Shown here one piece after another: positions 27,378-44,111 of a stretch of 64,000 nucleotides of DNA (its first letter is position 1; each line of letters opens with the position of its first letter). Under the pieces are notes generated by a model. The model made no database searches. It was not told the DNA's origin and was given only the letters and a program-made list of their open reading frames with translations. Source of the stretch: Saprospiraceae bacterium (GTDB lineage Bacteria; Bacteroidota; Bacteroidia; Chitinophagales; Saprospiraceae); contig CATQHI010000027.1 in NCBI GenBank assembly GCA_958295895.1, positions 124,001 through 188,000 of the forward strand. The letters are read 5' to 3'. Made by a program: the position numbers and the translations under genes.

Positions 27378-27386
27378 TTTAGTGCA

Positions 27387-27691
27387 CTACCAGCTGTGGT
27401 GGGCGCTGAGCTGCAGTTGATCCTTCTCCCATACCGCCGTCGTCTGGTTCATCCACCCCGGCTGCACCCGCAGCCGGTCGGTGAGTCCGTTGCGCAGCAG
27501 CAGTTGTTCCAGGTCGCCGCCGGGGTTCCAGAACCGGAACTGCGCATCCCATATACTCCGAAGGTACCACCGCCGAACTGGGCGGTGTAGAAATACACGT
27601 ACCAGGCCCCGAGCTGCTCTTCCGGTACCGACTGGACGTGGGTAAACTGTGTACCGGTAAAGCAGGAGAACAGGAGTAGGGTGCGTAGCAT
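27387..27691 (-). pseudogene. DUF2490 family remnant, frameshifted and short
   Basis: The first frame encodes a signal peptide and LGAWYVYFYTAQFGGGTFGV, then breaks near 27549-27556. In the shifted frame DAQFRFWNPGGDLEQLLLRN continues to GLTDRLRVQPGWMNQTTAVW and ends QLSAHHSW at a stop at 27387. GAWYxYF plus QLLLRxGL is the signature of DUF2490 barrels, but these are normally about 230 residues; here only about 100 codons remain, so the middle also seems deleted. A decaying gene is more likely than a sequencing error alone. 9 bp upstream of the second DUF5916 gene. Confidence 0.6.
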
Positions 27692-27734
27692 GGAGATTCA
27701 GTAGTACGTTGCTGGTGAGGTATAGTTCGGGAGT

Positions 27735-27752
27735 GGGCGGGGCCGCGGGTGC
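27735..27752 (+). repeat. Dispersed GC-rich word, copy 5
   Basis: GGGCGGGGCCGCGGGTGC in the intergenic region between the GT39 gene and the DUF2490 remnant. Confidence 0.78.
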
Positions 27753-27766
27753 GGAGATAATCGCTA

Positions 27767-29206
27767 TTACCGTCGTACCCGGTAAAGCCGGTACCGCTCC
27801 GTCGCCCCCACCGCCACCGTATCCAAGCCCTCCACCACCTCCGTCTTGCGGGCGACCAGGAAGTCATGATCCAGCCGCCGGCCCACCGCCGTGTCGATGC
27901 TCACCTCGTTCGTGCGGTACAGGTAGCTGACGATCTCGCCGATATCACCCTGGGAGCCGATCGTGGTGCCCTTAGGCAGTACGGTATTCATGGCCTCCAC
28001 GTCGCCCAGTACGACGCGGTCGCGGCGGGTGACCTGCCCCCAGTGGCGGGCGGTGTTGGCGAGCGAGAGGACCAGCAGTACGCCAGCAAGTCCGGTTACC
28101 CATCTACCCGTGCGGCCTGACCAGGGAGTAGCCATAAAGTGCGCGGCCGCGGGTGCAAGCAACAGCGCAAAGCCCAACGCGAAGTACGCCATCGACGGCA
28201 GCAGGTAGTAAAACGACTGCTTGGGACTAATGGCTAGGGGGAAGGAGGCCGCTACCCCCAGACTGAGGAAAAGGTACGCCGCCTGCACCTGCGTCCCCCG
28301 CCCGATCGTGTTGCCCAGTTTACGGTACCCATAATAGAGGCCGAGAAGCGTAAGCAGCACCGTCGGCAGCAGGATCTCAAAGGTGCGCCCGATGATGTAA
28401 AAGCGGTTGGTACGGTAATGACGCTCCCAGCTCCGCTCGGAGTTCAGACTGGCCAGTACCTGGGAGTCGAAGTAGCTGGTGAGGGAATCGCGGGCGGCGT
28501 CGACCTGCCAGAGTAAGGCATAGAAAACAACTACGGTGGCAGTCATACCGAGCGTAAGCAGCAGGGCACGCGGCAGATGCTGACGGCGGTACACGAGCCA
28601 GTGCAGCACGAAAAACCCGAGGGGGAAGAGCGCTACGAAACCTTTACAGAGATTAGCCAGCGCTACGAGTAGGCCAGCCAGCACCGCCCAAATCAGCTGC
28701 CTCCACAATCCGGCGGCGCGTACCCCCCGGAGTCCGGCCCAGACCGCCCCAAGCGTAAATAGTGTCATGGTGGGCTCCAGCACATTGGCCGGATAGAAGT
28801 GGTAGACCACCTCGTTGGCCAGCCACAGCGTGAGCGGCACGAACCAGCACCTCCGGGCGGCCGGCAGTTCCCGTAGCGCCTCCCGCCAGAGGACTACGAT
28901 GAGCAGCGCCGATAATAGGAAGATGGTAAGGGCATAGAAGCGCTCCGTAGCGATGCCCTCCCCCAGCACCTCGAAGAAAAGTGACTGAATGCCGAAGACC
29001 AACGGCGGATGCTCGTGGAAACTGAAGTGATGAATCTCGGAGAGCTTCGGATCCCAGAAGGTGCCTACCCCGCGGGCGAGGTTTTTGGAGAGGCCGGCGT
29101 AGGCTAGTCCGTCGGTATACATGCTGCGCTCGACGAGCTCGGAGGCTACGAGAAAAAAGAAGAGGATTAGGGGAAGTAGGTAGAGGGCGCGTTTACTGGT
29201 GGGCAT
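27767..29206 (-). CDS. Glycosyltransferase family 39 (ArnT/PMT-like) membrane protein
   Basis: 479 residues with about ten membrane helices. The first extracytoplasmic loop has YTDGLAYAGLSKNLARGVGTFW and HHFSFHEHPPLVFGIQSLFF, matching the PMT_2/GT39 layout in which an acidic residue in loop 1 is catalytic. Such enzymes transfer a sugar from a polyprenyl-phosphate donor to lipid, protein or glycan outside the inner membrane; acceptor unknown. The ATG follows TAGCTTTA by 4 bases, suggesting a leaderless mRNA, divergent from the DUF2064 gene. Confidence 0.87.
   Translation of the reverse strand: MPTSKRALYLLPLILFFFLVASELVERSMYTDGLAYAGLSKNLARGVGTFWDPKLSEIHHFSFHEHPPLVFGIQSLFFEVLGEGIATERFYALTIFLLSALLIVVLWREALRELPAARRCWFVPLTLWLANEVVYHFYPANVLEPTMTLFTLGAVWAGLRGVRAAGLWRQLIWAVLAGLLVALANLCKGFVALFPLGFFVLHWLVYRRQHLPRALLLTLGMTATVVVFYALLWQVDAARDSLTSYFDSQVLASLNSERSWERHYRTNRFYIIGRTFEILLPTVLLTLLGLYYGYRKLGNTIGRGTQVQAAYLFLSLGVAASFPLAISPKQSFYYLLPSMAYFALGFALLLAPAAAHFMATPWSGRTGRWVTGLAGVLLVLSLANTARHWGQVTRRDRVVLGDVEAMNTVLPKGTTIGSQGDIGEIVSYLYRTNEVSIDTAVGRRLDHDFLVARKTEVVEGLDTVAVGATERYRLYRVRR
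28139..28157 (+). repeat. Dispersed GC-rich word, copy 6 (variant)
   Basis: GTGCGCGGCCGCGGGTGCA, two differences from the GCGGGTGC form; inside the GT39 gene, coding LAPAAAH. Confidence 0.55.
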
Positions 29207-29210
29207 GGGG

Positions 29211-29218
29211 TAAAGCTA
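29211..29218 (-). promoter_or_regulatory. -7-like element giving a leaderless GT39 mRNA
   Basis: TAGCTTTA (7 of the 8 expected positions) on the minus strand, 4 bases from the ATG at 29206. Confidence 0.5.
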
Positions 29219-29267
29219 CTGTGGGGGTGCCCGTTGTGTTGTAAGAACTTTCCTCACACTTCCTACG

Positions 29268-29275
29268 TAGCTTTG
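29268..29275 (+). promoter_or_regulatory. -7 element giving a leaderless DUF2064 mRNA
   Basis: TAGCTTTG, an exact TAnnTTTG match, 4 bases before the GTG at 29280; supports the GTG as the true start. Confidence 0.65.
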
Positions 29276-29279
29276 TACT

Positions 29280-29981
29280 GTGAGCGCGCCCACCGCCATC
29301 CTCTTTTTCTCCCGCACCGCCTCCGCCGAGGCGCAGGCTAAGGCCTTTGGACCTAGAGGAGAACGGGTGGCCGCTGCCCTCATTCGCCGTACCGAGCGTA
29401 CCCTGGCCCGCGCCGGCCTACCGGTGTACCGTAGCGACGAGCGCCAGCAGTTGGAGGATCGAGACTTTGGCGGTAAGCTATCCGCAGCGGTAGCCGACGT
29501 ATTCGCCCGGGGCCACGCCCACGTGATCGTGGTGAGCAACGACTGCCCCCGGCTGAATGTAGCGGCGATCCGGCAGGCTACCCGTACGCTGGAGGCCGGC
29601 CGGCATGTGGTTGGCCCCGACACCCGTGGCGGTGCCTGGCTGATCGGGCTACGGGCCGACACCTTCGATCCACACACCTTCGCCGCCCTCAACTGGCAGA
29701 GCCCCGCGGTAGCCGAGGAACTGCTCCTGCACCTCCAGGATTGCACCCAGCTCACCTGCCGCACCGACTATAATGAGCTTAGGGAGCTACGGGCCGACTG
29801 GCACCAACTCGCCACCCACCTCCCCACCCTAGCCTTCCTCTTCCTGGTTCCCACCGCCTTTGCGTCTTGGAACACTCCCCCTCCCCAGCTCGCAGGCATG
29901 CCCCACGCCCGAGCTCCGCGGTCCCCCACGCGCCCTGTAGCGCACCTGGCCTCCCTGAGCCGCCGCCCCTTTATTCCTTAA
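29280..29981 (+). CDS. DUF2064 family glycosyltransferase-like protein
   Basis: 233 residues from a GTG start. SAPTAILFFSRTASAEAQAK at the start, then FGGKLSAAVADVFARGHAHV, IVVSNDCPRLNVAAIRQATR and VVGPDTRGGAWLIGLRADTF match the DUF2064/TIGR04282 family, GT-A-like proteins that include an arsenosugar-pathway member. The nucleotide-sugar fold is inferred from family; substrate unknown. The last 50 residues are proline-rich and probably not conserved. Leaderless promoter; 50 bp upstream of the TonB receptor gene, so it may or may not belong to the transport cluster. Confidence 0.82.
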   Translation: MSAPTAILFFSRTASAEAQAKAFGPRGERVAAALIRRTERTLARAGLPVYRSDERQQLEDRDFGGKLSAAVADVFARGHAHVIVVSNDCPRLNVAAIRQATRTLEAGRHVVGPDTRGGAWLIGLRADTFDPHTFAALNWQSPAVAEELLLHLQDCTQLTCRTDYNELRELRADWHQLATHLPTLAFLFLVPTAFASWNTPPPQLAGMPHARAPRSPTRPVAHLASLSRRPFIP

Positions 29982-30031
29982 GCCCTTTTCTCCCTTACCC
30001 TTAGCTCCCCCAGAGCCAAGCCCCTTACCCT

Positions 30032-33013
30032 ATGAAACACTTTCTCCTCCTCCTCGCCCTGGCGATCCCCCCCCTCGTGTACGCCCAGCAGGACATCACC
30101 GTCGAACTCATCGACTACCAGTCTAACGGACCCGCCCCGGCTGAGCTGTCTGTGACGCTGACCAACACTAACCAGGGCATCAACCGCGCGGCCGTCACCG
30201 ACGCCCAGGGCCGCGTCATCTTCCGCGCCCTACCGGCCCTGGCCGGCTACCGCATCACCGTGCCGGAGTCGGAGGACTACCTGGACGGCGAGAGCGAGCC
30301 CATCGACCTGCGGGCCAACCAGAGCCGGACGGTGCAGCTCATTCTGTTTAGCCGGCAGACGGTCGACCTCGACGTCATCAGCGTAGCGGCCACCAGCTCG
30401 GCGCGGATCAACCGCCAGGATGCCGAGGTGGCCTTTGAGCTCTCGGAGGAGGAATTACAGGCCCTGCCCATCGAGGGCCGCGACATCACCCGGGCGCTGT
30501 ACCGGCTACCGAACGTGAGCCAGGCCACCGGCTTCTATCCCGAGGCACCGAACGTGGCGATTAACGGGGCTAATCCGCTGTTCACCAGCTACCTCATCGA
30601 CGGACTGGACAACAACGAGCGCTTTCTGGGCGGACAAAAATTTGCCATCCCGAGCGGCTTCGTGCGCAACCTGACCGTACTGACCAACAACTACTCGGCG
30701 CAGTACGGACTGACGAGTAACGGCGTGATCAACGTCACGACCCGCTCCGGCTCCAATGAACTGACGGGAGAGGTCTTCGGCCTTTACCGCCCCAGCAGCG
30801 GTAACCTCGGCGATGACGACTTCACCCTGCGCGACCTGAGCGGTAACCCCGTGCGCGACGGCTTCCAGCGCTTCCAGGGCGGCTTCGCGCTCGGCGGACC
30901 GATCAAGAAGGACCGGACCTTTTTCTACGTTGACGTGGAGCATACCACCGACCTCAAGGGCAATACCCTGAGCAGTCCCGCCCTCGGTGTCAACGAGACC
31001 GTGCAGGGCACCAATACCTTCACCTACCTCAGCGGTAAGGTGGATCATAACTGGAGCGATAAGTTCCGTTCGAGCCTGCGCACCAATATCGGCCGGGTGG
31101 GTATCGAGCGGCAGGGCGGCGGACTGGAGGGCGGCGTCACCTTCCCATCGGCCGGCAACCAGCAGGACCGCAATTCCTTCCTACTGGCCAATACTAACAC
31201 TTACCTGGGCACCAACTTCAGCTCGCAGACCAACCTACAGTACGCCCGCTTCCGCTGGAACTACGCTCAACCTACGGACAATGACAACCCGCAGGTGACC
31301 GTGCTGGGCCCTACCGGTGAGAACATCGCCATACTCGGCCACCCCGGTTACGTCTTCGACGAGGTCGAAAACACCCTACAGCTGCAGCAAAACTTGTCGT
31401 TCTACCTCGACCGCCACACCCTCAAGACCGGCTTCAATGTGATCAGTGCCGACCATCAACTCTTCGGCGGCGGGGTGCCTAACGGGGCGTACCAGGTGAT
31501 GCTCGACGAGGGGCAACTCGGGGCGCTGCGCGAGCGGAACCTGGGTAGCAATATCAGTCCCCAGGATATCCCCGCCGACGTAAACGTACTCGGCTACAAC
31601 ATCGAGCTACGCCCCAGTAGCTTCGGTACCCGGCAGAATATCTACAGCCTGTACGTCGAGGACCAGTTCGCGCTCGACGACCGACTCAACCTCACCGCCG
31701 GCCTGCGTTACGATTACGATAACTTAAGTAAGGGCGGCAGCAACCGCGGCGACTACAACAACATTGCCCCCCGCCTCAACTTCAATTACAAGCTAGGCAA
31801 TCTCTCGGCCCTGCGCGGCGGCTACGGCATCTTTTACGATAAGGTGCTCTACGCCGTATACAGCGACGCCCTGCAGCAGAACACCACCGACCCCGGCTAC
31901 CGGGCACAGCTGCAGGAGCTCATTCGCCAGGGCATTCTGCCCTCTGACACCGACCTCGACCGCATCACCTTTGACGGCAACCTCGGTGCCTCGGCCAGTA
32001 ACGTGACCTACCTCCAGGGGCCCACCGCCGCCCAACTACAGGGTCAGCGCGCCGGCGTCTTCAGTGGCGAGCGCCGCATCCTTAATCCCAATGGCTACGA
32101 CAATCCCTACACCCACCAGCTGACCCTGGGCTACCAGTACCAGGTCAACGACCGTACGCTCTTCTACGTGGACCTAGTCCACAACCGCTCCGAGAACCTC
32201 TACCGCCTGCGCAACCTCAACGCGGCGGCCGAGTATCCGATCACCGATCCGAATAACGTAGTGGTGCGCACCACCGATCAGGCCGATGCCACCCGCCCGG
32301 TACCCATCGTAGGCGATCGGGGCGTCATTAGGGGGGACACCATCACCGGCGTGGCCCGCAACGTCACGGTCACCGAGGCCGGAGGCAAGGCTCGCTACTA
32401 CGCGGCTAGCTTCGTGCTGCAACAGGCCGAGGGGGCCAACCACCTGAGCTGGCGGCTCAACTACACCCTCTCCTCCCTCAAGAACGACACCGAGGACATC
32501 AACTTCCGGGCCATGGACGGCAACAACTTCGCCGCCGAGTACGGGCCCAGCATCAACGACCGCCGCCACATCATCAACGCCATCGGCACCTACGCCGCCC
32601 CCTTCGGCCTGCGGGCTACCCTGGCGGCTCTGGTGCAGAGCGGTCAACCCGTGAACCGTATCCCCGACGCCACGATCTACGGCACGGCCGACCTCAACGG
32701 CGACGGGGCCGGCTTCGGCGACGCCTACGTCGGCAACTCCGACCGCTTCCCGGGCGAGGCCCGCAACTCCGACCGCCTGCCCTGGTCATACGTCTTTGAT
32801 CTCTCTTTGGAATACCGCCTGCCCTTCGCCGGCGAGCACCTGGCCGTCTCCGCCGATGTCTTCAACCTCCTCAACACCCGTAACCTCAGCGGCTACAGCA
32901 ACAACGCCACCCAGAGCAATCAGATCCAGGTCGGGGCGGCCGGCTCCGGCATCGTACAGCGCAACGCCGACGCCCCCCGCCAGGTGCAGCTCGGCCTCCG
33001 CTACTTGTTTTAA
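30032..33013 (+). CDS. TonB-dependent receptor with carboxypeptidase-regulatory-like head
   Basis: 993 residues. Signal peptide to about residue 19 (LVYAQQ); a CarboxypepD_reg-like beta-sandwich at about 23-110; plug domain with LPIEGRDITRALYRLPNVSQ, then AINGANPLFTSYLIDGLDNN and VLTNNYSAQYGLTSNGVINV; and a large barrel ending in PRQVQLGLRYLF with terminal Phe for BAM recognition. The layout matches OmpA/TonB receptors such as Oar-like proteins rather than SusC (no SusC plug signature, no SusD gene nearby). Directly upstream, with the same orientation, of two amidotransferase-fold genes and an ABC importer, so it is the likely outer-membrane gate for that substrate. Confidence 0.93.
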   Translation: MKHFLLLLALAIPPLVYAQQDITVELIDYQSNGPAPAELSVTLTNTNQGINRAAVTDAQGRVIFRALPALAGYRITVPESEDYLDGESEPIDLRANQSRTVQLILFSRQTVDLDVISVAATSSARINRQDAEVAFELSEEELQALPIEGRDITRALYRLPNVSQATGFYPEAPNVAINGANPLFTSYLIDGLDNNERFLGGQKFAIPSGFVRNLTVLTNNYSAQYGLTSNGVINVTTRSGSNELTGEVFGLYRPSSGNLGDDDFTLRDLSGNPVRDGFQRFQGGFALGGPIKKDRTFFYVDVEHTTDLKGNTLSSPALGVNETVQGTNTFTYLSGKVDHNWSDKFRSSLRTNIGRVGIERQGGGLEGGVTFPSAGNQQDRNSFLLANTNTYLGTNFSSQTNLQYARFRWNYAQPTDNDNPQVTVLGPTGENIAILGHPGYVFDEVENTLQLQQNLSFYLDRHTLKTGFNVISADHQLFGGGVPNGAYQVMLDEGQLGALRERNLGSNISPQDIPADVNVLGYNIELRPSSFGTRQNIYSLYVEDQFALDDRLNLTAGLRYDYDNLSKGGSNRGDYNNIAPRLNFNYKLGNLSALRGGYGIFYDKVLYAVYSDALQQNTTDPGYRAQLQELIRQGILPSDTDLDRITFDGNLGASASNVTYLQGPTAAQLQGQRAGVFSGERRILNPNGYDNPYTHQLTLGYQYQVNDRTLFYVDLVHNRSENLYRLRNLNAAAEYPITDPNNVVVRTTDQADATRPVPIVGDRGVIRGDTITGVARNVTVTEAGGKARYYAASFVLQQAEGANHLSWRLNYTLSSLKNDTEDINFRAMDGNNFAAEYGPSINDRRHIINAIGTYAAPFGLRATLAALVQSGQPVNRIPDATIYGTADLNGDGAGFGDAYVGNSDRFPGEARNSDRLPWSYVFDLSLEYRLPFAGEHLAVSADVFNLLNTRNLSGYSNNATQSNQIQVGAAGSGIVQRNADAPRQVQLGLRYLF

Positions 33014-33056
33014 TCGCATCTGCTCCGACTTTGTCGGGGCCCAACTCCCTTTCCCC

Positions 33057-33683
33057 ATGCTCCAAGCCGCCGTCTACAGCAACCAAATCGTAGGACTCGA
33101 AGACTACTTCCAGTCCAACCCGAAGGTCGCCTACCACTTCCTGATCGTGGATGGGAAGACCCGCCACGACCTGCGCCCCTATGACCTGCTGATCGTCCCC
33201 AACGGCACCGACCAGATCGCGGTAGGCCGCTTGAAGCGAGACATCCACGCCTTCCTGGACGCCGGCAAGACCGTCTTCTGCTTCGACGGCTGGTTCACCG
33301 ACTGGGTACCCGGCAACCAGTGGGTCATGGACAATAGCCGCAAAACCATCAACATCCGCTACACGGTCCGCAGCGATCGCCACGGGCTTTTCGACGGCAT
33401 CTCCGTAGAGGACTTCACCTTCCTGCACGGCATGAGCGGCTGGTGGGCCTGCGGCTACATCAACCCCGCCCCCGCGGCCGACGTAGTCCTGGAAGATACC
33501 TGGGGCCGCGCCATCATCGTCCTTGATGAGCACACCACCCCCGGCACCCTGCTCCTCACCGCCAGCGGCCCCCTGGGCGATAGCTCCTACGGCCTCACCG
33601 ACAACGCGGGCACCTTCGCCTCCCTCGCCCGCTTCTACCACCGCCTGCTGGACCGCCTGGTCATCCCCACTCCAGTCTCCTGA
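33057..33683 (+). CDS. Class I amidotransferase-fold (ThuA-like) protein A
   Basis: 208 residues, no signal peptide; start at ATG 33057, 43 bp after the receptor stop. The core YDLLIVPNGTDQIAVGRLKR, IHAFLDAGKTVFCFDGWF and a late GTLLLTASGPLG strand resemble the flavodoxin-like GATase1/ThuA fold. No nucleophile Cys-His-Glu triad can be seen (the Cys in VFCFDG is not in the usual nucleophile elbow), so a binding or hydrolase-like role is more likely than glutamine hydrolysis. Paralogous to the next gene across the central region. Function not recognised; role in processing or sensing the transported compound is inferred from context. Confidence 0.6.
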   Translation: MLQAAVYSNQIVGLEDYFQSNPKVAYHFLIVDGKTRHDLRPYDLLIVPNGTDQIAVGRLKRDIHAFLDAGKTVFCFDGWFTDWVPGNQWVMDNSRKTINIRYTVRSDRHGLFDGISVEDFTFLHGMSGWWACGYINPAPAADVVLEDTWGRAIIVLDEHTTPGTLLLTASGPLGDSSYGLTDNAGTFASLARFYHRLLDRLVIPTPVS

Positions 33684-33733
33684 TCCCCCATCCCTCGTCC
33701 CCAAATCCCCCCCATCCCTAAATCCTACCCCCC

Positions 33734-34387
33734 ATGATCGGTCTAATCTTCAACGGCGTCTGGTCCCAGTACACCTTCGCCCGGGCGGCCAAGTACCGCG
33801 CGCTCTACCGGCTCATCTACGTCCACGATCTCGACGCTACTCAACTCGAGGGGCTGGAGGCGCTGGTCATTCCCTTTCAGTCGAACCAGGTGGCGCTGAG
33901 TGCGCGCAAAGAGTTGATCTACGACTTCCTGGCCGCCGGCAAAAAAGTCTTCGTCGAGGGCGACAGCTCCGCCAGTTGGCTCGATGCCCGGTGGGAGGAC
34001 CGGCCAGTCAATAACTACTGGTGGGTCACCGATCCGGACAATCCGCCGGTGAGCGCTACCGATTACACCCACCCCGTGTACCAAGGTCTGAAGCCCCGCC
34101 ACGCCTGCTGGCACACCCACGGCGCTTACACCCGCATACCGGAGGGGGCCGAGATCGTACAGACCAACGCCGCCGGCGAGGTGATCAGCTGGCAGACCGG
34201 CACCTACGGCGGCACCCTCTTCGCTACTACCCTGGACCCGGTGGTGGAGCACGGCATTCAGCAGATCACCCACCTGGACAACTACGTGGATCGCATGACC
34301 GCCTGGCTGTGCGGCAAGACGCCTGCGGGGGAGTTCACCTTCGCGGCGGCCGACTTCGGCGTGACCCCCGAACGGGCGCTGGCATGA
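33734..34387 (+). CDS. Class I amidotransferase-fold (ThuA-like) protein B
   Basis: 217 residues, no signal peptide. Aligns with protein A through LEALVIPFQSNQVALSARKE, IYDFLAAGKKVFVEGDSSAS and a C-terminal THLDNYVDRMTAWLCGK helix, but adds HPVYQGLKPRHACWHTHGAY, where a His-Ala-Cys-Trp-His cluster could bind metal or be catalytic; protein A has GLFDGI...HGMSGWWACGY there, also with His and Cys. ThuA-like proteins often occur in sugar-utilisation operons. Its stop overlaps the start of the binding-protein gene (ATGA), so it is part of the transport operon. Confidence 0.6.
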   Translation: MIGLIFNGVWSQYTFARAAKYRALYRLIYVHDLDATQLEGLEALVIPFQSNQVALSARKELIYDFLAAGKKVFVEGDSSASWLDARWEDRPVNNYWWVTDPDNPPVSATDYTHPVYQGLKPRHACWHTHGAYTRIPEGAEIVQTNAAGEVISWQTGTYGGTLFATTLDPVVEHGIQQITHLDNYVDRMTAWLCGKTPAGEFTFAAADFGVTPERALA

Positions 34388-35589
34388 GGGGGTGGTGGAT
34401 CGGTTTGCTGTTGCTGCTACTTGCCTGCGGAGAGGAGCAGGATACCTCCGCAGGGGAACTACCCGCGGACTGGGACGGCATCGTCGCCGCCGCCCGCGGC
34501 CAGACCGTCGACTGGATGATGTGGGCCGGCGACCCCCTGATTAACGACTACGTCACCTCCTACGTGGCCCCTACCGTACGGGAGCGTTACGGCATCGAGC
34601 TCAACGTCATTCCCGGACAGGGCAGCCAGATCGTGCAGCTCCTACTGGGCGAGTTGGAGGCCGGACGGGAGCGCAGCGAGATCGACCTGGGCTGGATCAA
34701 CGGGGAAACCTTCTACCAGCTCCGCCAGATCGACGGCCTCTACGGTCCCTGGACCGAGCGGCTGCCCAACGCGCGCTACATCGACTTCGACAATCCCTTC
34801 ATCGGTACCGACTTCCAGCAACCCATTGCGGGCTACGAGCTGCCGTGGGGCAATGTGCAGATGACCGTGATCTATGACAGCTCCAAGGTGGCTACCCCAC
34901 CCCGTACGCGGGCCGAGCTGCTTGCTTTCGTGCGGGCGAATCCCGGTCGCCTCACCTGGCCCACGGAGTTCACCGGACTGACATTCCTCAAGGCGCTACT
35001 GATCGACATTGCGGGCGGCGGGCAGGCGCTGTCGGGCGACTTCAACGAGGCCGACTACGCTCGGTACAGCAAGGAGCTCTGGGCCTACGTCAATCAGCTC
35101 AAACCCTATCTCTGGCGCGAGGGCCGGACCTTCCCCGAGACCCTGGCCGCCCTGCACCAGATGTTCGCCAACGGGGAGTTGTGGTTCACGATGAGCAACA
35201 ACGACGTAGAGGTCGATAACAAGATCGGCGAGGGGCTCTTCCCCGCTACGGCACGGGCCTACGTACCGGACTTCGGTAGCATCCAGAACAGTCACTACCT
35301 CGGCATCACCAGGCTAAGCGATGACAAGGCAGCGGCTATGGTGGTGGCCAACTTTTTGATCAGTCCGGAAGCGCAGCTGCGCAAAGCCGACCCGGCCGTC
35401 TGGGGCGATGGCACGGTATACGCCCTGGATCAGTTGCCGGACAGCCTCCGCACGGCCTTCCAAAACCTGCCCGGCCGGGTACACGCGCCGCAACGGGCGG
35501 CGATCCAGGCCAATGCCCTCCAGGAGCTTGCCCCCGAGTACATGATCCGGCTGGCGGAAGATTTTCGCACCCAGGTAATCAACCGGTAG
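34384..35589 (+). CDS. YnjB-like ABC transporter substrate-binding lipoprotein
   Basis: 401 residues from the ATG at 34384. Lipoprotein signal GWWIGLLLLLLACGEE with the lipobox Cys near residue 15. Mature domain: ARGQTVDWMMWAGDPLINDY, EIDLGWINGETFYQLRQ, LYGPWTERLPN, ELPWGNVQMTVIYDSSKVAT, RLTWPTEFTGLTFLKALL and WFTMSNNDVEV follow E. coli YnjB closely as remembered, a type II binding protein of unknown ligand in the AfuA/ThiB/PotD superfamily. The permease and ATPase genes follow directly, as in ynjBCD. Coupled by ATGA overlap to gene B. Confidence 0.88.
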   Translation: MRGWWIGLLLLLLACGEEQDTSAGELPADWDGIVAAARGQTVDWMMWAGDPLINDYVTSYVAPTVRERYGIELNVIPGQGSQIVQLLLGELEAGRERSEIDLGWINGETFYQLRQIDGLYGPWTERLPNARYIDFDNPFIGTDFQQPIAGYELPWGNVQMTVIYDSSKVATPPRTRAELLAFVRANPGRLTWPTEFTGLTFLKALLIDIAGGGQALSGDFNEADYARYSKELWAYVNQLKPYLWREGRTFPETLAALHQMFANGELWFTMSNNDVEVDNKIGEGLFPATARAYVPDFGSIQNSHYLGITRLSDDKAAAMVVANFLISPEAQLRKADPAVWGDGTVYALDQLPDSLRTAFQNLPGRVHAPQRAAIQANALQELAPEYMIRLAEDFRTQVINR

Positions 35590-36447
35590 ATGAGGCGCCG
35601 CGGCATACCCTGGCTTTTTCTGCTCCTGGCCGTGGGGCCGGTGGTGCTGGGCCTGGGCTACGCCTTGCTGTACAGTTTGGGCTTGGTCGGCCTGCTCGGT
35701 CGCGGCTTCACCCTGGAGCACTGGGGGGCGGTGGTGCGCAGCGCGGACTTCTGGGGGGCACTGGGGCTAAGTACCTTCATCGCTGTAGTAACTATCACCC
35801 TCAGTACGGCCCTGGCGCTGGCGGCGGTGCTCCGCTGGCAAGAGCACACCCTGCGGGGACTACGTACTTACGCTTTCTACCTTCCCCTGGCGCTGCCGGC
35901 GACCGTCATGGCCTTCCTCATCTTTCAGTGGCTGGGAGATGCGGGTTTGCTTTCCCGGCTGGCCTTTGCGCTCGGGCTCACCAACTCCACCACCGACTTT
36001 CCCAGCCTGATCAACGACCGCTGGGGCACTGGCATCATCGTGGCCCATACCCTGATGGCCACCCCCTTTCTGACCATCTTTCTGGCCAATCTCTACCGCA
36101 GCGAGCGGGTCCGGGAGGTCAGTCAGGTAGCGGCTACGCTGGGGCTGCCACCGGGCAGGGTCGCCCGCCGGCTCGTCATTCCGCTGTTGTTGCGGCAGGG
36201 CCGGTCGACGCTGTTGCTCTACGCCGTTTTCGTCTTCAGCAGCTACGAGATCCCGCTATTGCTGGGCAGTCAGTCGCCGGCGATGCTCTCGGTGCTCACC
36301 ATTCGTAAGCTGCAGCGCTACAACCTGGCCGATATCCCCCAGGCCTACGTGATCAGCGTACTCTACGCCCTCCTCCTGGTGGCCGTGCTACTCCTCTGGC
36401 TGGGCTGGAGCCGCTACCGCAGAAACACCGCGCTGCATGAAGCCTAG
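35590..36447 (+). CDS. ABC transporter permease, YnjC N-half-like
   Basis: 285 residues, six membrane helices, BPD_transp_1 fold. The cytoplasmic coupling helix EAA-type loop is visible as EVSQVAATLGLPPGRVARRL near residues 176-195. Other marks: LPLALPATVMAFLIFQW and NDRWGTGIIVAHTLMATPFL. Begins directly after the binding-protein stop (TAGATG). E. coli YnjC is a single fused protein of two such halves; here they are two genes, with this one equivalent to the first. Confidence 0.9.
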   Translation: MRRRGIPWLFLLLAVGPVVLGLGYALLYSLGLVGLLGRGFTLEHWGAVVRSADFWGALGLSTFIAVVTITLSTALALAAVLRWQEHTLRGLRTYAFYLPLALPATVMAFLIFQWLGDAGLLSRLAFALGLTNSTTDFPSLINDRWGTGIIVAHTLMATPFLTIFLANLYRSERVREVSQVAATLGLPPGRVARRLVIPLLLRQGRSTLLLYAVFVFSSYEIPLLLGSQSPAMLSVLTIRKLQRYNLADIPQAYVISVLYALLLVAVLLLWLGWSRYRRNTALHEA

Positions 36448-37198
36448 GCTCGGATCGGCACTGCTCTTTCTGCTCGCGCTCTTCCCCTTCGCGTTCCTGC
36501 TGCTGCTTTCGGTGAGTCAGCGGTGGGTGTATCCCGACCTACTACCGGCCGGCTGGTCGCTGCGGCCCTGGGGGGATGCCCTCGGGCGGGGGGACGATCT
36601 GGGCGTGGCCCTGCTTACCTCCCTGCTTATCGCCCTTACGGTGGGGGCGGTGGGTACCCTGCTGGGCTTTGCTACGGCGCGGCGACTGAGTCTGCTTCCC
36701 CGGGGCCGGCGGTGGTTGCGGTTGGCTTATCTACCCTACGTGTTTGCGCCGGTCCTTCTGGCGGCCTGTTTGCAGTTCTATTTTCTGCGGCTGGGGCTGA
36801 GTGGCCGGGTGGCGGGGGTGTTGCTGGCGCAGCTGTTCATCGTCTATCCCTATGCCGTCATTCTGGCCAGTAGCTTCTACACCTCCCGGTTGCGCGACAT
36901 GGAAGATCTGGCGGGGACGCTGGGTGCAACGCCGGTGGAGGTAGCCCGCACGGTCTCCTGGTACCTACTGCGCGGTCCGCTGGCGATCGTCTTCTTTCAG
37001 TCCTTTCTGATCAGCTGGTTCGAGTATGGCCTGACGCTGCTGATCGGGGTAGGTAAGGTGGCTACCCTGCCGCTGAAGGTCTTTCAGTTTGTCAACGAGG
37101 CGAATATTTTTTACGCGGCCATGGCGGCTAGCTTGCTGGTGGTGCCGCCGGTGCTGCTACTGTGGATCAATAAGCGGCTCTTATTCGTTACCCGCTAA
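36437..37198 (+). CDS. ABC transporter permease, YnjC C-half-like
   Basis: 253 residues, six helices. EAA-type loop MEDLAGTLGATPVEVARTVS near residues 155-174; SFLISWFEYGLTLLIGVGKV and NEANIFYAAMAASLLVVPP are typical of the second half of YnjC-like permeases. Overlaps the first permease by 11 bp and shares one base with the ATPase start (TAATG), so production of the two halves and the ATPase is coupled. Confidence 0.9.
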   Translation: MKPRLGSALLFLLALFPFAFLLLLSVSQRWVYPDLLPAGWSLRPWGDALGRGDDLGVALLTSLLIALTVGAVGTLLGFATARRLSLLPRGRRWLRLAYLPYVFAPVLLAACLQFYFLRLGLSGRVAGVLLAQLFIVYPYAVILASSFYTSRLRDMEDLAGTLGATPVEVARTVSWYLLRGPLAIVFFQSFLISWFEYGLTLLIGVGKVATLPLKVFQFVNEANIFYAAMAASLLVVPPVLLLWINKRLLFVTR

Positions 37199-37938
37199 TG
37201 GAAGGCTACCTCGACGCACGGCAGATCAGTAAAACCTTCGGGCGGGAGCGTGTCCTGAACGATTGCTCGCTGCAATTGGCGAAAAGCAGCACCCTCAGCG
37301 TCCTCGGCCGCTCCGGCAGCGGTAAGACCACCCTACTCAAGATCATCGCCGGACTGGAGACGGCCGACAGCGGCACGATCACCCTGGACGGCACCTCACT
37401 CTACCGCGTCCCTCCGCACCAACGCGGGGTGGTGTACCTCTACCAGGAGGCACTGCTCTTCCCCCACCTCAACGTCTTTGAGAACGTCGCCTTCGGACTA
37501 CGCATCCGCAAGGTGCCCGAGCCGGAGCTCCGCGAGCGGGTAGACCGGATGCTGGGCGAACTACGTATACAGGATCAGGCCCGTAAGTCGCCCAACCACC
37601 TCAGCGGCGGGCAGCGGCAGCGGGTGGCCTTCGGGCGGGCGCTCATCATCAACCCCCGCGTACTGCTCCTCGACGAGCCCTTCGGCGCCCTGGATGCCCG
37701 TACGCGGGGGGAGATGCAGGAGTTTTACCGGCGTATTGCGGCTGAGTTTCGTATCACCTCCGTCTTCGTCACCCACGACCTGAAGGAGGCCCTGCTGATG
37801 GGCGACCGGCTGGCGGTGATGGAGGGGGGTAGTCTTACGCACTACGCTAGTCGGGAGGCCTTCGTGGCGGATGCGCGTACGGGAGTCGCCGCGGAGGTCT
37901 CGTTCTGGCAACATCTTCAGCTGAAAAATCATGAATAG
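37198..37938 (+). CDS. ABC transporter ATPase, YnjD-like
   Basis: 246 residues. Walker A GRSGSGKTT at 37-45, Q-loop YLYQEALLFPHL near 80-91, signature LSGGQRQRV at 135-143, Walker B LLLDEPFGALD at 156-166, H-loop VFVTHD near 190-195. No C-terminal TOBE domain, in line with the short YnjD/ThiQ type. Drives the importer formed by the two preceding permeases. Its last 8 bp overlap the radical SAM gene. Confidence 0.94.
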   Translation: MEGYLDARQISKTFGRERVLNDCSLQLAKSSTLSVLGRSGSGKTTLLKIIAGLETADSGTITLDGTSLYRVPPHQRGVVYLYQEALLFPHLNVFENVAFGLRIRKVPEPELRERVDRMLGELRIQDQARKSPNHLSGGQRQRVAFGRALIINPRVLLLDEPFGALDARTRGEMQEFYRRIAAEFRITSVFVTHDLKEALLMGDRLAVMEGGSLTHYASREAFVADARTGVAAEVSFWQHLQLKNHE

Positions 37939-38881
37939 CGACTTTGACCATATAGAATCCGTCTACTGGGTCTTCACCCAGCTCTGCAACGACCACTGCG
38001 ACCACTGCTACAACGCCAGCGGACCGCAGGGCAGCCGCATCTCCCACGCCGAGTGCATGGCCATCATCGAGAACCTGCCCGAGCGGATGGACCGGCTCAT
38101 CCTCAGCGGTGGGGAGCCCCTGGCCGACCGGAAGCTGCTCTTCGCCATCCTCGACCGCATCCGGGAGCGCTACGGCGACACGGTGCAGCTCATGCTCCAG
38201 ACCAACGGCGACCTACTCACCCCGGCCCACCTCGACACCCTCATCGAAAAGGGAGTCACCCGCTTTGACATTGCCAGCATCGACCGCTTCCATAAGGCCG
38301 CCGGCTCGCGGTTGATGGAGCTGGCTGAGCTCTTTGAGTCCCGCGGCGTCGACGGCCAGGACAGGGACCCCCTCATCGAGAAAGAAACCTACCTCAAAAA
38401 ATCCAGGCTCAGCTGGGGCTACTGGGGTGCCAACGAGGAGATGTGGCTCGGCGGCAACTGGGCCCGCGGTCGCGCCCTGGAAAAGGACATCTGGCTGCGC
38501 GATCCCCGCCACAACTTTTGCACCATCCTCTCCGGGGCCCGCAACTTCCTGGGCGGCTACACCGACATCCCGCAGGAGATCAGCATCCAGCTCTGGCGCA
38601 TCAATCCCTGCTGCCCCGGCACCAAGTTCCCGATGGGCGATGCCCGCGTGGATAAGGTGAGTGAGGTACTCCAGCGCATGTCCACCCACCCTGTCTTCCG
38701 GCACCTCAACGACGGCAACCCCTACCGCATGGGCGAGCACCTGGGCATCAGTGAGGCCGAGGCGATGGCGCAGGGCACCGCCCTCCAGAACGTCTGCCTC
38801 TACTGCGATCACTTCTTCGGCGCGCACATGCGCGAACTGGAGCGGGGCAGCTTTGTGGCGTTGCCGGTTGCCGGTCGCTGA
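37931..38881 (+). CDS. Radical SAM protein coupled to the ABC importer
   Basis: 316 residues. The 4Fe-4S/SAM motif is C19-x3-C23-x2-C26 (VFTQLCNDHCDHCYN), followed by RLILSGGEPLADRKLL (SAM-binding GGEP) and VQLMLQTNGDLLTPAHLDTL, a canonical partial TIM barrel. The second half has GRALEKDIW, NPCCPGTKF and a C-terminal CLYC pair (289, 292), which could ligate a second cluster as in SPASM/twitch proteins. No precursor-peptide gene is visible. Translationally coupled to the ATPase, so it likely acts on the imported compound or makes a cofactor from it; this is inference. Confidence 0.85.
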   Translation: MNSDFDHIESVYWVFTQLCNDHCDHCYNASGPQGSRISHAECMAIIENLPERMDRLILSGGEPLADRKLLFAILDRIRERYGDTVQLMLQTNGDLLTPAHLDTLIEKGVTRFDIASIDRFHKAAGSRLMELAELFESRGVDGQDRDPLIEKETYLKKSRLSWGYWGANEEMWLGGNWARGRALEKDIWLRDPRHNFCTILSGARNFLGGYTDIPQEISIQLWRINPCCPGTKFPMGDARVDKVSEVLQRMSTHPVFRHLNDGNPYRMGEHLGISEAEAMAQGTALQNVCLYCDHFFGAHMRELERGSFVALPVAGR

Positions 38882-38961
38882 GCCGGTCGTCAGCCGAGTC
38901 ATTGCCCAACTACCACCCCTAAAAGACTTCCTATCTTCCCTACCCCAACCCCCCGCCCGGC

Positions 38962-39969
38962 ATGCCCCTCCGTCTCCTCCTCCCACTCCTGCTTGCCGCC
39001 ATCCACCTCCCCGCCCAGACCCTCATCGAAGGCCGTGCCCCCGCCGCCTACCGCAACGAGCTTGTCCAGCTCGACATTCTCGACGACCATATCGATGTGG
39101 TAACCATCGCGGACTACATGATCCTGGCGCAGACGGAGGTAGATTCCACGGGCTACTTCCGATTTAACGGGCTCACCCTGCCCGCAGAACCGAACTACTA
39201 CCGCATCCGCTACCGTAAACGGGCGGACCCTCCGGTGAGCATGGACTTCTTAAAGCGCCACTACCTACATGCCGTAATGCAGGCGGGAGACACGCTACGC
39301 ACCGACGGCCTCGGTCTAATAAGTGCGAGCGCAACCAACACCGCACTTATCCGCTTCGAAGCCCAGTTCGATACCTACGCAGATGCCGACAACCCCACCC
39401 TACCGACCCGTGCACGGGAGGAGCTCACCCAGCTTCGTAGTGACTACATTCACCGCACCATTCAGGATACGGAGGCTGATCCCTACGTCAGGGTATTCGC
39501 GCTCGGTAAACTCGGGGAGGATGCCCCCGACCAGCGAGCCCTCCAGGCCGGTAAGGAAGCCCTTGCCCTCACCGATCTCCCTCTCTCCTACGAGGAGCAA
39601 CTGATGCATGACCTCGGCGGATTCGTCTACCGGGACCTACAGCGGCAAAACACCTGGCTGAAGTTAGCGCTCGGCATCCTACTCATCATCACCGGGTACT
39701 GCTGCTGGTTACTCTATACTCGCCGACCCGTGGCAACTGTATCGCATGACTTATCGACGCCAGCAGCTACCGACGAGCTGACTGAAAAGGAGCGGGAGGT
39801 GCTGGAGCAGATCGCGGGCGGTCATAGTAACAAGGAAGTAGCCGCCCGGCTATTCATCTCCGTATCGACCGTCAAGTCGCACATCAACAGCATCTACCGA
39901 AAGCTAGGCGTGACGGACCGCCGCGGGGTGGTAGAGGTGTGGGAGGAGCAAAATTCCACCCCGGTCTAG
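38962..39969 (+). CDS. Membrane-anchored LuxR-type regulator with an exported sensor domain
   Basis: 335 residues. Signal-like N-terminus (LRLLLPLLLAAIHLPAQ), an exported domain of about 210 residues with an early beta-rich part (EGRAPAAYRNELVQLDILDD and GYFRFNGLTLPAEPNYYRIR) followed by helices, one membrane helix at about 233-251 (LKLALGILLIITGYCCWLL), and a C-terminal LuxR/GerE HTH (LTEKEREVLEQIAGGHSNKE, then STVKSHINSIYRKLGV). The topology joins outside sensing to DNA binding in one chain, without kinase or receiver. It follows the transport cluster in the same direction and may regulate it or the next gene. Confidence 0.85.
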   Translation: MPLRLLLPLLLAAIHLPAQTLIEGRAPAAYRNELVQLDILDDHIDVVTIADYMILAQTEVDSTGYFRFNGLTLPAEPNYYRIRYRKRADPPVSMDFLKRHYLHAVMQAGDTLRTDGLGLISASATNTALIRFEAQFDTYADADNPTLPTRAREELTQLRSDYIHRTIQDTEADPYVRVFALGKLGEDAPDQRALQAGKEALALTDLPLSYEEQLMHDLGGFVYRDLQRQNTWLKLALGILLIITGYCCWLLYTRRPVATVSHDLSTPAATDELTEKEREVLEQIAGGHSNKEVAARLFISVSTVKSHINSIYRKLGVTDRRGVVEVWEEQNSTPV

Positions 39970-40038
39970 TCCCCATTTCCACCCCCTAATCGTTGCGGTA
40001 GCGGGGGTAATCCGGGTTCTTGCGGCAAAACACGCTGC

Positions 40039-40803
40039 ATGAAATCCTTCTTCCTTTTCGTTCTTACCGTTTGCGTTTGCACCCGCGTCCCCGCCCAGAT
40101 CCGAGACTCCGTGTGGACACAGACCGATGCCGCTGACTACAAAGAGAGGCACAATGACTCTACCACCTGGGATATGGAGCTCTTCGCCGATGACCTAACC
40201 CACAAAACTGATACGGCCTGGACCTACCGCCTAAAGCCTGCCCTACACCCGCTACCCATTCCGGTGCCCGCCTACGACTGGGGCTACGTGAATATGCGGA
40301 TCACCGAACTTGCCATTCCGGGTAGAACGATTCTGGGGGCCACCTATGCCTATGCTTACGATCAGTACCGCCCCAAACCCGCGGGAGACTCCCTAGCCTA
40401 CTACGGTACCTTCTTCAATATTCTGATACTAACCGATACGGTAGGCGATGATACTCGCGCCCTAATGATCAACTCCCGCAACGCCCCCCACTACCTCGGT
40501 ACGGGCAAGCAACTGACCTCGGTAGGGCCGGTAGAATTCGCGCAGCTATCGCTAGCAAGCGGCGAGAACTTCGCGCTCATCAGTCAGCAGTACTTCGACC
40601 TGCGGCAGGGGCGTACCGTCCTGGTGGCCCCGCTGCGGGATGGCTCCGTACGCTTTCTGCAGCTCGCGGACTCACCGGAGAGTATGCGTAGTGGAGCGGC
40701 CGGCGATGCGTACAACAACGAAGTGATTCAGGCCTTTCAGCAGCAGTTGGAGATGGATCCCCGGGTGATCGCTTTCTTTACCCAGGCCGGTACGCTAGAG
40801 TAA
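40039..40803 (+). CDS. Secreted protein of unknown function
   Basis: 254 residues with a signal peptide ending CTRVPAQ (about 21). The mature part is mixed alpha/beta: YNNEVIQAFQQQLEMDPRVI near the end, MELFADDLTHKTDTAW near 42-57, and a central region DYGTFF-like with LILTDTVGDDTRALMINSRN. I recognise no family. It lies between the LuxR-type gene and the cobalamin riboswitch and may be cotranscribed with the regulator. The signal peptide C-region is encoded by a variant GC-rich word. Confidence 0.7.
   Translation: MKSFFLFVLTVCVCTRVPAQIRDSVWTQTDAADYKERHNDSTTWDMELFADDLTHKTDTAWTYRLKPALHPLPIPVPAYDWGYVNMRITELAIPGRTILGATYAYAYDQYRPKPAGDSLAYYGTFFNILILTDTVGDDTRALMINSRNAPHYLGTGKQLTSVGPVEFAQLSLASGENFALISQQYFDLRQGRTVLVAPLRDGSVRFLQLADSPESMRSGAAGDAYNNEVIQAFQQQLEMDPRVIAFFTQAGTLE
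40078..40096 (-). repeat. Dispersed GC-rich word, copy 7 (variant)
   Basis: GGGCGGGGACGCGGGTGCA on the minus strand, two differences from the exact word; encodes CTRVPA in the signal peptide of the 40039 gene. Confidence 0.55.
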
Positions 40804-40808
40804 TACTA

Positions 40809-40918
40809 CCTCCCTGCAACGCCGCTAGACGTTGGCCTCTGTCTACCTCATTCACACCCTATGCCGCCGGCTCTGTGGTACCTCCGTGAAGCCCTCCGAA
40901 TCCTCTGTAGTGAACCCT
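40809..40918 (-). repeat. CACAGAG/hairpin intergenic element, copy 1
   Basis: On the minus strand it opens GGGTTCACTACAGAGG, has further CGGAGG and CACAGAG words, and closes ACAGAGGCCAACGTCTAG then CGGCGTTGCAGGG, a hairpin (CAACG/CGTTG). Same order as copies at 43160-43260 and 58853-58961. It lies directly before the riboswitch. Confidence 0.78.
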
Positions 40919-40921
40919 ACC

Positions 40922-41100
40922 AATGCCAGCAAATAGCACACTACCTTCGCCCCCGCGAAGCGGTAAGGGAATCCGGTGGAAAGCCGGAGCTGTCCCCGCA
41001 GCTGTAAGCCCCACCACGGGTGCTCTCCACGTACGCCACTGGGCCCCACCGGGTCTGGGAAGGCGGGGAGTACCGGGGCGAGCCAGAAGACCTGCCGCGG
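40922..41100 (+). ncRNA. Cobalamin riboswitch
   Basis: Diagnostic blocks in order: AAGGGAATCCGGTG, AAAGCCGGAGCTGTCCCCGC, AGCTGTAA, GCCACTG, GGGAAGGC and GAGCCAGAAGACCTGCC. These match the B12-element core. About 140 bp separates it from the start of the btuB-like gene, with a possible hairpin (CCCTTCG/CGAAGGG, about 41118-41135) as expression platform. B12 binding should shut the receptor gene off. Confidence 0.96.
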
Positions 41101-41236
41101 CGCGCCATATCCTACCAGCCCTTCGGTGCGAAGGGGCGGGGAGCCGGGTGTACGATCTAGCGGGCAGTCGACGGGGCAAGTCCCGAGCGGTCGTTGCCGT
41201 GCCCCGCCCAGCAGCGCCGGTTTTACCCGCCCGACC

Positions 41237-43273: not shown

Positions 43274-43924
43274 CTACTCCACCAGCAGCTTGCTAGCCAC
43301 CACCTTACTCAGCACCTCCCGGGGGTGGCCGGGATAGCTGACCGTCAGCGAGCCATCGTAAGCTTCCTTCTTTGCAATAGTAAGTTCGGTGCGCAGGCTG
43401 AGGTCACGGCCATTGAGATAATATAGGAAGTCATTGGAGGTATGGTCCAGGCCGCTGATAGTGACCGTTTCACCGACCAGGCACTCGTCGAGGCGGCGGT
43501 GATCAAAGTCGTCGATACCGCCCTCGGCGTCGGGGATGGGCGAGCCGTGGGGGTCGGTTTTGGGGTGGCCCATGAGCTTGTCCATGCGGGCGAAGAAGTC
43601 GGGGCTGTCGACGTGCTCGATCTGCTCGGCGATGGTGTGGACCTCCTCCCAGCCGAAGCCCATCACATCGACCAGAAACATCTCGGTGAGGCGGTGCTTG
43701 CGCACGACCAGGGCGGCGGCCTTGCGGCCGGCCTCGGTAAGGCGCAGGGGCTGGTACTTCTGGTAGTCGACCAGTCCGCGCTCGCTGAGCTTGCGCACCA
43801 TGCTGTTGGCCGAGGGGGTGCTGACCTGGAGGGCTTCGCCCAGTTTGGAGATGGTGGTGCGACCAGCTTCGTCGGCGAGGGCGAGTAATGCCTTGAGGTA
43901 ATTTTCTTCGGTGGGCGTGGCCAT
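43274..43924 (-). CDS. DtxR/MntR-family metal-dependent repressor
   Basis: 216 residues from the ATG at 43924 (MATPTEENYLKALLALADEA). N-terminal winged helix with STPSANSMVRKLSERGLVDY, dimerisation/metal domain with VVRKHRLTEMFLVDVMGFGW, EEVHTIAEQIEHVDSPDFFA and DPHGSPIPD, then a FeoA/SH3-like C-terminal domain (VGETVTISGLDHTSNDFLYY). Binds Fe2+ or Mn2+ and represses uptake genes; here most likely Mn or Fe. The long upstream frame to 44128 crosses a repeat array and is not coding. Confidence 0.93.
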   Translation of the reverse strand: MATPTEENYLKALLALADEAGRTTISKLGEALQVSTPSANSMVRKLSERGLVDYQKYQPLRLTEAGRKAAALVVRKHRLTEMFLVDVMGFGWEEVHTIAEQIEHVDSPDFFARMDKLMGHPKTDPHGSPIPDAEGGIDDFDHRRLDECLVGETVTISGLDHTSNDFLYYLNGRDLSLRTELTIAKKEAYDGSLTVSYPGHPREVLSKVVASKLLVE

Positions 43925-43930
43925 GGGGCT

Positions 43931-44013: not shown

Positions 44014-44035
44014 CGGAGTAGTCGTCAGCCGAATC

Positions 44036-44100: not shown

Positions 44101-44111
44101 GAGGGACGAGA

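Follow-up and report, generated by a model that had tools for sequence, protein, structure and literature searches.

A TonB-plus-ABC uptake cluster with a radical SAM enzyme, conserved across Bacteroidota, and hints to the class of its ligand

YnjBCD of Escherichia coli (COG4134-4136) is a widespread ATP-binding cassette (ABC) importer whose ligand is stated nowhere in the literature that we found, and it is called uncharacterized in the accessible part of one paper (PMC9207381). Here we report on a cluster of nine genes that joins an importer of this type to a TonB-dependent outer-membrane receptor and to a radical S-adenosylmethionine (SAM) enzyme, referred to here as rSAM. The cluster lies in a stretch of 64,000 nucleotides (positions 124001-188000 of contig CATQHI010000027.1, assembly GCA_958295895.1; referred to here as the window) from the 4.77-Mb genome of a Saprospiraceae bacterium. 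A preliminary description, made from the DNA letters, had likened the importer to YnjBCD, and the likeness bears up: the solute-binding protein (SBP) matches the NCBIfam model PRK11622 (YnjB-type) over its full length (388.6 bits vs. a cut-off of 203; of 14 control genomes, only E. coli passed this cut-off), it also passes the Pfam cut-off of SBP_bac_8, and the order SBP-permease-ATPase is the same. The window cluster differs from YnjBCD of E. coli in its split permease and in the presence of the receptor, a CofC-like gene and the rSAM gene.

The salvage of 5'-deoxynucleosides (DrdK/DrdI/DrdA, dihydroxyacetone phosphate shunt; accessible parts of PMC6079011 and PMC10986504) resembles sister clusters of the one described here, which pair a methylthioribose (MTR)-kinase-like enzyme with a nucleoside-cleaving enzyme. 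Of the full salvage set (kinase or phosphorylase, isomerase, aldolase, as given in the accessible part of PMC6079011), no member was found in the window cluster and no isomerase or aldolase was recognised by eye in the sister clusters, whereas the cluster described here has dedicated two-membrane uptake and an rSAM as a cluster gene; neither 'transporter' nor 'YnjB' occurs in the accessible part of PMC10986504. The arsenosugar locus (ArsM, ArsS/TIGR04167, TIGR04282, TIGR04283 and purine nucleoside phosphorylase, PNP) adjoins the cluster in Aquimarina algicola, shares families with it in other Flavobacteriaceae and has a CofC-like partner; however, the window rSAM is not ArsS, and the two do not co-occur at the level of genomes. 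Finally, HutW stands with a TonB receptor and a heme ABC importer in heme uptake with radical degradation, so that the two would share a logic in which TonB uptake is followed by ABC import and by processing with a radical SAM enzyme. Here, in contrast, the importer is of the YnjBCD type, and no HutW-named model is among the best 25 of 53 NCBIfam matches of the rSAM. We found no description of such a gene set in the literature within our reach, which excluded most subscription papers.

Conservation and distribution of the cluster

A scan of genome contigs for the rSAM gave 34 loci at 56-75% identity, 32 of them titled Bacteroidota and one a Chthoniobacterales (verrucomicrobial) metagenome-assembled genome (MAG). 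With nine further loci (L073-L081) and the window, and leaving out G088, whose contig matches that of L047 in length, this makes 44 loci, in which genes were counted by tblastn on one strand within at most 11 kb upstream or 5 kb downstream, at a coverage of at least 25% and at identity thresholds of 45% for the receptor, 40% for the SBP and the amidotransferase-like genes GAT1 and GAT2, 30% for the permeases, 44% for the ATPase and 23% for CofC (a threshold of 50% was listed for the rSAM, yet not applied to it). The recurring order is CofC - receptor - (GAT1-GAT2) - SBP - permease 1 - permease 2 - ATPase - rSAM. Among the 35 loci whose upstream flank reaches 9.3 kb or more (the window included, nine loci with a shorter flank excluded), the receptor was found in 30, each importer gene in 30 and a CofC homolog in 29, a count in which the entry for L027 is a second, TIGR04282-type paralog and the CofC of L052 sits 3' of the rSAM gene. 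The importer genes are absent from L031, L042, L050, L073 and L079, in the first four of which nothing of the importer lies between receptor and rSAM, and the window-type receptor is absent from L027, L046, L052, L054 and L079. The cluster is thus a conserved unit, its set conserved far beyond chance, and we regard it as virtually certain that the module is real. Of the single cluster first proposed, the linkage of importer, receptor and rSAM holds across Bacteroidota, the importer-rSAM link that was to be checked in relatives being kept in 30/35 loci, while the GATase-like pair is an optional part (7/44 loci).

Where the window-type receptor is missing, another may take its place: L054 has a different TonB receptor at the same position, L052 and L092 have SusC-type receptors with the same importer, and the verrucomicrobial MAG has the importer-rSAM unit with a receptor other than that of the window. 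Because the outer-membrane receptor is swapped while the importer stays, the earlier proposal of import across both membranes is strengthened, and we consider the direction of transport very probably inward. The importer genes themselves are less distinctive. That YnjC is split in two holds insofar as there are two permease genes, but the split is not special to this cluster: two-gene permeases also follow YnjB-like SBPs in Deinococcus, Metabacillus and Peptoclostridium, and fused permeases of ~560 amino acids (aa) occur in two Rhodobacterales regions and one Sinorhizobium region. E. coli YnjC is a single fused permease; since split sets occur elsewhere too, fusion is not a strict mark of YnjBCD. 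Permease 2 has no Pfam match, and its best NCBIfam match is PhnV (71.6 bits vs. a cut-off of 358.7); the SBP has no sequence relatives in the PDB at E<=0.01. Import of thiamine or a phosphonate was considered and dropped, the similarity being at family level and no supporting neighbour gene being seen.

The module is thinly spread. In a sample of 345 genomes of the class, our own included (several searches of equal size and with shared handles are taken as the same draw), the YnjB model is over cut-off in six genomes and the rSAM is found in three (our own, G194 and G337, that is 2/344 others), all of them among those six (hypergeometric 1.7e-4, own genome excluded, kinship ignored). Among 99 other relatives, eight have strong rSAM orthologs, one of them in pieces; in 20 genomes of the same genus the rSAM query gave weak matches to other radical SAM genes or nothing. 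The rows nearest to the window in the rSAM tree are Bacteroidota, e.g. Phaeodactylibacter and Saprospiraceae MAGs. No plasmid-borne copy of the rSAM was found at E<=1e-10 in 72,556 records, and no further relative at E<=1e-15 in 57 other genomes near the verrucomicrobial locus. This patchy distribution suggests loss or transfer. The genomes derived from the loci come without completeness figures and many are incomplete MAGs, and absences there may be gaps.

Some loci have been disturbed. L079 (G071:C157), kept in the 44 and the 35 loci and omitted from the rSAM tree (43 rows), has an rSAM ortholog that is split into pieces close to the end of a contig (13190-14441), a broken or misassembled copy. 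Insertions between cluster genes, with the order intact, are seen in L030 (9382-9939), L032 (8201-8752), L025, L027 and L041, and were named by eye as REP-transposase-like, KilA-N-like, DUF262-like and ATPase; in L023 a seven-bladed lactonase (PF10282, 316.6 bits; 3684-4853) lies between permease 2 and the ATPase.

Neighbour genes, ligand class and rival explanations

Three genomes of the window's own family (G332, G451 and G472, read at loci L092-L094) have a YnjB-type SBP over cut-off and no ortholog of the window rSAM at E<=1e-30. The order in these sister clusters is CofC - SBP - permease 1 - permease 2 - ATPase - nucleoside hydrolase - MTR kinase (MTRK)-like kinase - SusC-type receptor (assigned with Pfam for L092, by eye for L093 and L094), followed by a SusD-like gene in L092 (Pfam) and L094 (by eye), its place in L093 lying past the fetched stretch. 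All three hydrolases pass the cut-off of PF01156 and keep DxD...DVDDG and NFDLDN stretches, which are typical of the hydrolase family; the kinases score 112-120 bits against TIGR01767 (cut-off 275). L052, the most divergent rSAM locus, joins both cluster forms in the order SBP - permease 1 - permease 2 - ATPase - hydrolase - MTRK-like kinase - rSAM - CofC - SusC-type receptor; the hydrolases of L052 and L093 share 64% identity. Relatives of the hydrolase at ~28-35% identity occur in 9/295 class genomes, the close form only in G332 of that sample.

Further neighbours are of a similar kind. A Peptoclostridium (Clostridia) plasmid has a YnjBCD set that begins 81 bp 3' of another nucleoside hydrolase, and a PNP gene occurs in seven rSAM loci (3' of the rSAM gene in L028, L029, L034, L035, L036 and L046, and also in L051). 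The inner-membrane transporter is swapped as well: in L031, L035 and L050, whose genomes yielded no SBP, a SemiSWEET lies 7-8 bp 3' of the rSAM gene (the L050 frame is broken by N), followed in L035 by the PNP gene 2 bp further on. Taken together, the neighbours are moderate evidence for a ligand that resembles a sugar or a nucleoside. Because the sister clusters have a hydrolase and an MTRK-like kinase at the place of the rSAM gene, a nucleoside or related (5-deoxy)ribosyl compound would be the likeliest class, and we put such a ligand forward tentatively.

On this reading, the TonB receptor would pass a small, polar and scarce compound through the outer membrane, the YnjB-type lipoprotein would bind it, and the two permeases with the ATPase would carry it into the cytosol, where the SPASM/twitch-type rSAM may oxidise or rearrange it. 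The CofC-like enzyme, a CofC/DUF2064-like protein that presumably has a GT-A fold, would then act on the product, probably as a nucleotidyl- or glycosyltransferase, and the GATase-fold pair, of which at least GAT2 is apparently non-catalytic, may help in some lineages. That the rSAM acts on the imported ligand is the part towards which we lean, and the radical modification of an imported compound suggested in the preliminary description would come about in this way; the whole, a patchily distributed uptake-and-processing module for a ribosyl- or nucleoside-type molecule, is a working proposal held with less than even confidence. Bolder, and rather doubtful, is the idea that the YnjBCD family at large imports 5'-modified nucleosides or ribosides, that Bacteroidota coupled it to a TonB receptor and to a new rSAM that opens or oxidises the nucleoside, and that the GATase-fold pair serves as substrate carrier. 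If true, this would be a two-membrane route of nucleoside acquisition that ends in radical chemistry; the cluster and its rSAM-less sisters would give a concrete ligand class to the orphan YnjBCD and could give a very conserved rSAM family its first reaction. The gene combination is real and conserved, and of the TonB-plus-ABC uptake kind; the ligand hint is good, yet unproven.

Several observations weigh against a ribosyl or nucleoside ligand and against so close a tie between importer and rSAM. Neither a nucleoside hydrolase nor a PNP or kinase gene adjoins the window cluster, and hydrolase and kinase occur together in a single rSAM locus, the most divergent L052. The MTRK-like gene of our own genome lies on another contig without cluster genes and was therefore dropped as support, that of G042 also stands apart, and 40/46 genomes searched gave no match to this kinase. 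The hydrolases and kinases score far under the NCBIfam equivalog cut-offs, so that their substrates are putative. The PNP genes of the five flavobacterial loci belong to a common block and amount to a single event, and the PNP gene of L051 lies ~8 kb off on the other strand. Small transporters of the SemiSWEET kind are common, and the three loci that have one here fall into a single clade (support 98/91 in the rSAM tree); no SemiSWEET was found within the stretch covered in L042 and L053, whose genomes likewise yielded no SBP. A YnjB-type SBP was found in 29/34 rSAM genomes, which leaves five without (many being incomplete MAGs), and in G332, G451 and G472 the importer is present without this rSAM. 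EpeE, which the modelled rSAM resembles, is a peptide epimerase, so that the likeness of fold is no argument for a sugar. A by-product of the rSAM, moreover, rather than the ligand, could be what the 5'-deoxynucleoside salvage enzymes act on.

This last point can be made into an explanation of its own, that the PNP, hydrolase and kinase neighbours only clear rSAM-made 5'-deoxyadenosine and say nothing on the ligand. Clearing 5'-deoxyadenosine is a known need, and 5-deoxyribose salvage uses MTR-kinase-like enzymes or homologs of MTA phosphorylase (accessible part of PMC6079011); in L052 and L035 the nucleoside genes adjoin the rSAM gene or the gene behind it. However, G332, G451 and G472 join hydrolase and kinase to CofC, importer and SusC-type receptor without an rSAM ortholog, and since rSAM-less clusters carry both enzymes, disposal is not the whole story; we consider it distinctly unlikely to account for the neighbours. 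Alternatively, the rSAM, CofC-like and GATase-fold proteins could make a secreted metallophore or cofactor whose loaded form the receptor and importer retrieve. Natural products are a frequent outcome of SPASM/twitch chemistry and metal chelates a frequent cargo of TonB receptors, and in L038, L043 and L044 an exporter-type ABC protein of ~605 aa (F17, by eye) is encoded 3' of the rSAM gene, as would be expected of a product that leaves the cell; a second conserved gene (F41) stands 3' of the rSAM gene in the same three loci. Yet the exporter is confined to these 3/34 loci, clustered in one clade, no further biosynthetic gene recurs widely, the five genomes without a YnjB-type SBP would lack the retrieving importer, and the SusC-type receptors of the sister clusters fit nutrient uptake better, all of which makes biosynthesis with re-uptake unlikely.

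An organoarsenic module that imports or processes dimethylarsinoyl-ribosides, as part of arsenosugar metabolism, is suggested by Aquimarina algicola (L034), where one flank carries ArsS with a peroxidase-like partner and the other TIGR04282, PNP, arsenosugar ArsM and TIGR04283 (over the NCBIfam cut-offs are ArsS at 442 bits, arsenosugar ArsM at 583 bits, TIGR04282, TIGR04283 and TIGR04169). In L028 and L029 an arsenite-methyltransferase-like gene stands directly 5' of the rSAM gene (197.8 bits vs. a cut-off of 263 for the L028 protein), both products having, by eye, three Cys in ArsM-like places, and the operons of L025 and L027 include TIGR04282 proper. The CofC-like paralogs divide accordingly: a second one in L025, L027 and L034 passes the cut-off of TIGR04282, and the window protein reaches 64.9 bits (cut-off 134) over profile positions 73-171 only. 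Against this, ArsS is over cut-off in 5/34 rSAM genomes and in 54/345 class genomes, which is no enrichment (Fisher p = 1), our own genome has no TIGR04167 match at E<=1e-40, and in four genomes without an ArsS over cut-off (those of L028, L029, L036 and L046) the rhodanese-CofC-PNP block adjoins the cluster too. Although a catabolic role would need no ArsS, we regard an arsenosugar function as quite improbable, and the pathway, striking at L034 alone, was set aside as the answer when it failed the genome-level ArsS test. Most improbable of all is that the rSAM matures a peptide or the receptor itself: a predicted model of the rSAM comes closest in structure to the peptide epimerase EpeE, but no conserved small open reading frame (ORF) lies within 8.5 kb 5' or 1.5 kb 3' of the rSAM gene, and in L052 and L054 the receptor type is replaced while the rSAM stays.

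For comparison, we read seven of 75 records of YnjB-like plasmid regions, whose neighbours include CDP-alcohol phosphatidyltransferase (four regions), AhpD/CMD-family (three), TVP38 (two), sulfurtransferase (one) and nucleoside hydrolase (one) genes. The plasmid importers with phosphatidyltransferase, AhpD/CMD-family, TVP38 or sulfurtransferase genes are those of L069, L070, L072, L083 and L085; flavobacterial rSAM clusters, too, have rhodanese genes and, in L034, an AhpD-like gene beside them.

The radical SAM enzyme and the GATase-like pair

The rSAM family is very conserved, with a mean column identity of 72% over 25 sequences. C19, C23 and C26 (CxxxCxxC, the SAM-binding cluster) are invariant in 25/25 sequences, as are C197, C227, C228, C289 and C292, whose spacing is unlike the SPASM consensus, the structure model being weak at 226-229. 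The protein is far under the cut-off of every NCBIfam model among the best 25 of 53 matches, and its predicted structure resembles EpeE, BtrN (which acts on an aminocyclitol) and viperins (which act on nucleotides). Among the 1722 small ORFs in the stretch from 8.5 kb 5' to 1.5 kb 3' of the rSAM gene, none was conserved; the best family occurs in only 4/44 loci, antisense to a neighbouring gene. A ribosomally made peptide precursor was accordingly rejected, no conserved gene of this kind standing beside the rSAM gene across 44 loci in a search limited to its surroundings.

GAT1 and GAT2 are related to each other (hhalign probability 87.8%, E 3.3e-6). The preliminary description had called them ThuA- or GATase1-like paralogs without an obvious catalytic Cys triad. 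Neither has a Pfam or NCBIfam match at E<=0.1, ThuA models included, and the ThuA label is thus not borne out by sequence; the amidotransferase fold is upheld for GAT2, whose structure prediction gives a class I GATase fold, with no PDB sequence relatives at E<=1. As to the triad, in GAT2 the strand at 71-75 (EGDSS), where we placed the nucleophile elbow by eye, is not followed by a Cys, and the sole invariant Cys of six sequences is C125, in keeping with the description; GAT1, however, keeps invariant C75 and C132, and C75 appears to lie near the elbow position, two residues off by eye.

The pair was found in 7/44 loci (all seven among the 35 with enough flank), always adjacent and with GAT1 before GAT2, at three positions: 5' of the SBP gene (window, L022, L026), between ATPase and rSAM (L028, L029) and 3' of the rSAM gene (L047, L054); L024 has only a short piece that resembles the end of GAT2. 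Genome-wide, GAT2 is present in 7 of the 34 rSAM genomes, six times in the cluster and once, in the L023 genome, with GAT1 on a separate 4.7-kb contig, and it is found in 0/344 other class genomes at E<=1e-10. Because of this distribution we take the pair to belong to the system as an optional part. On the rSAM tree the GAT label needs at least two changes, counted against six importer-less rows only, with 30 unlabelled rows uncounted.

Gene boundaries and surroundings in the window

Genes of the cluster in the window
Feature	Coordinates	Strand	Basis
CofC/DUF2064-like protein	29280..29981	+	PF09837 61.2 bits vs. cut-off 25.8; TIGR04282-related, below that cut-off
TonB-dependent receptor, OMP_b-brl_4 type	30032..33013	+	Pfam OMP_b-brl_4, TonB barrel and plug over cut-off
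GAT1, GATase1-like paralog, 208 aa	33057..33683	+	Relatedness to GAT2
GAT2, predicted class I GATase-fold protein, 217 aa	33734..34387	+	Structure model
YnjB-type solute-binding lipoprotein (SBP)	34384..35589	+	PRK11622, SBP_bac_8; lipobox by eye
ABC permease 1, YnjC N-half-like	35590..36447	+	BPD_transp_1 over cut-off
ABC permease 2, YnjC C-half-like	36437..37198	+	NCBIfam similarity under cut-off, best PhnV
ABC ATPase, YnjD-like	37198..37938	+	ABC_tran over cut-off
Radical SAM enzyme (rSAM), SPASM/twitch-like	37931..38881	+	Radical_SAM over cut-off; CxxxCxxC and five invariant C-terminal Cys

The genes, frames and coordinates first listed were right, but the CofC/DUF2064-like gene, which ends 50 bp 5' of the receptor gene, had been overlooked. 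The junctions were also correctly described, namely the ATGA overlap at 34384, TAGATG at 35587-35592, the 11-bp overlap at 36437-36447, the 1-nt TAATG overlap at 37198 and the 8-bp overlap at 37931-37938; 'nearly gapless' fits most of them, though not the 50-bp gap between GAT1 and GAT2 (33683 to 33734). All nine genes are similar in GC content (0.62-0.67). The receptor has an N-terminal carboxypeptidase-regulatory-like domain that scores slightly under its Pfam cut-off.

An RNA-family scan from 26000 to 42000 (E<=0.5) gave no riboswitch within the cluster, its sole match being the cobalamin riboswitch of a later gene, and the loci of seven relatives gave none, only a tRNA and Flavo-1 reaching gathering scores. 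A LuxR-type helix-turn-helix protein is encoded 80 bp 3' of the rSAM gene (38962-39969, +); since no homolog was found at E<=1e-5 in the loci of 34 relatives, it is probably outside the system. Further on, the cobalamin riboswitch (40944-41113, +; RF00174, 92.1 bits vs. a cut-off of 31.5) stands upstream of another TonB receptor gene (41194-43138, +), which looks frameshifted or wrongly assembled because its plug (41194-42336) and barrel (42260-43138) lie in separate overlapping frames. On the other strand, an iron-dependent repressor family protein with a FeoA-like C-terminus is encoded at 43274-44128 (-).

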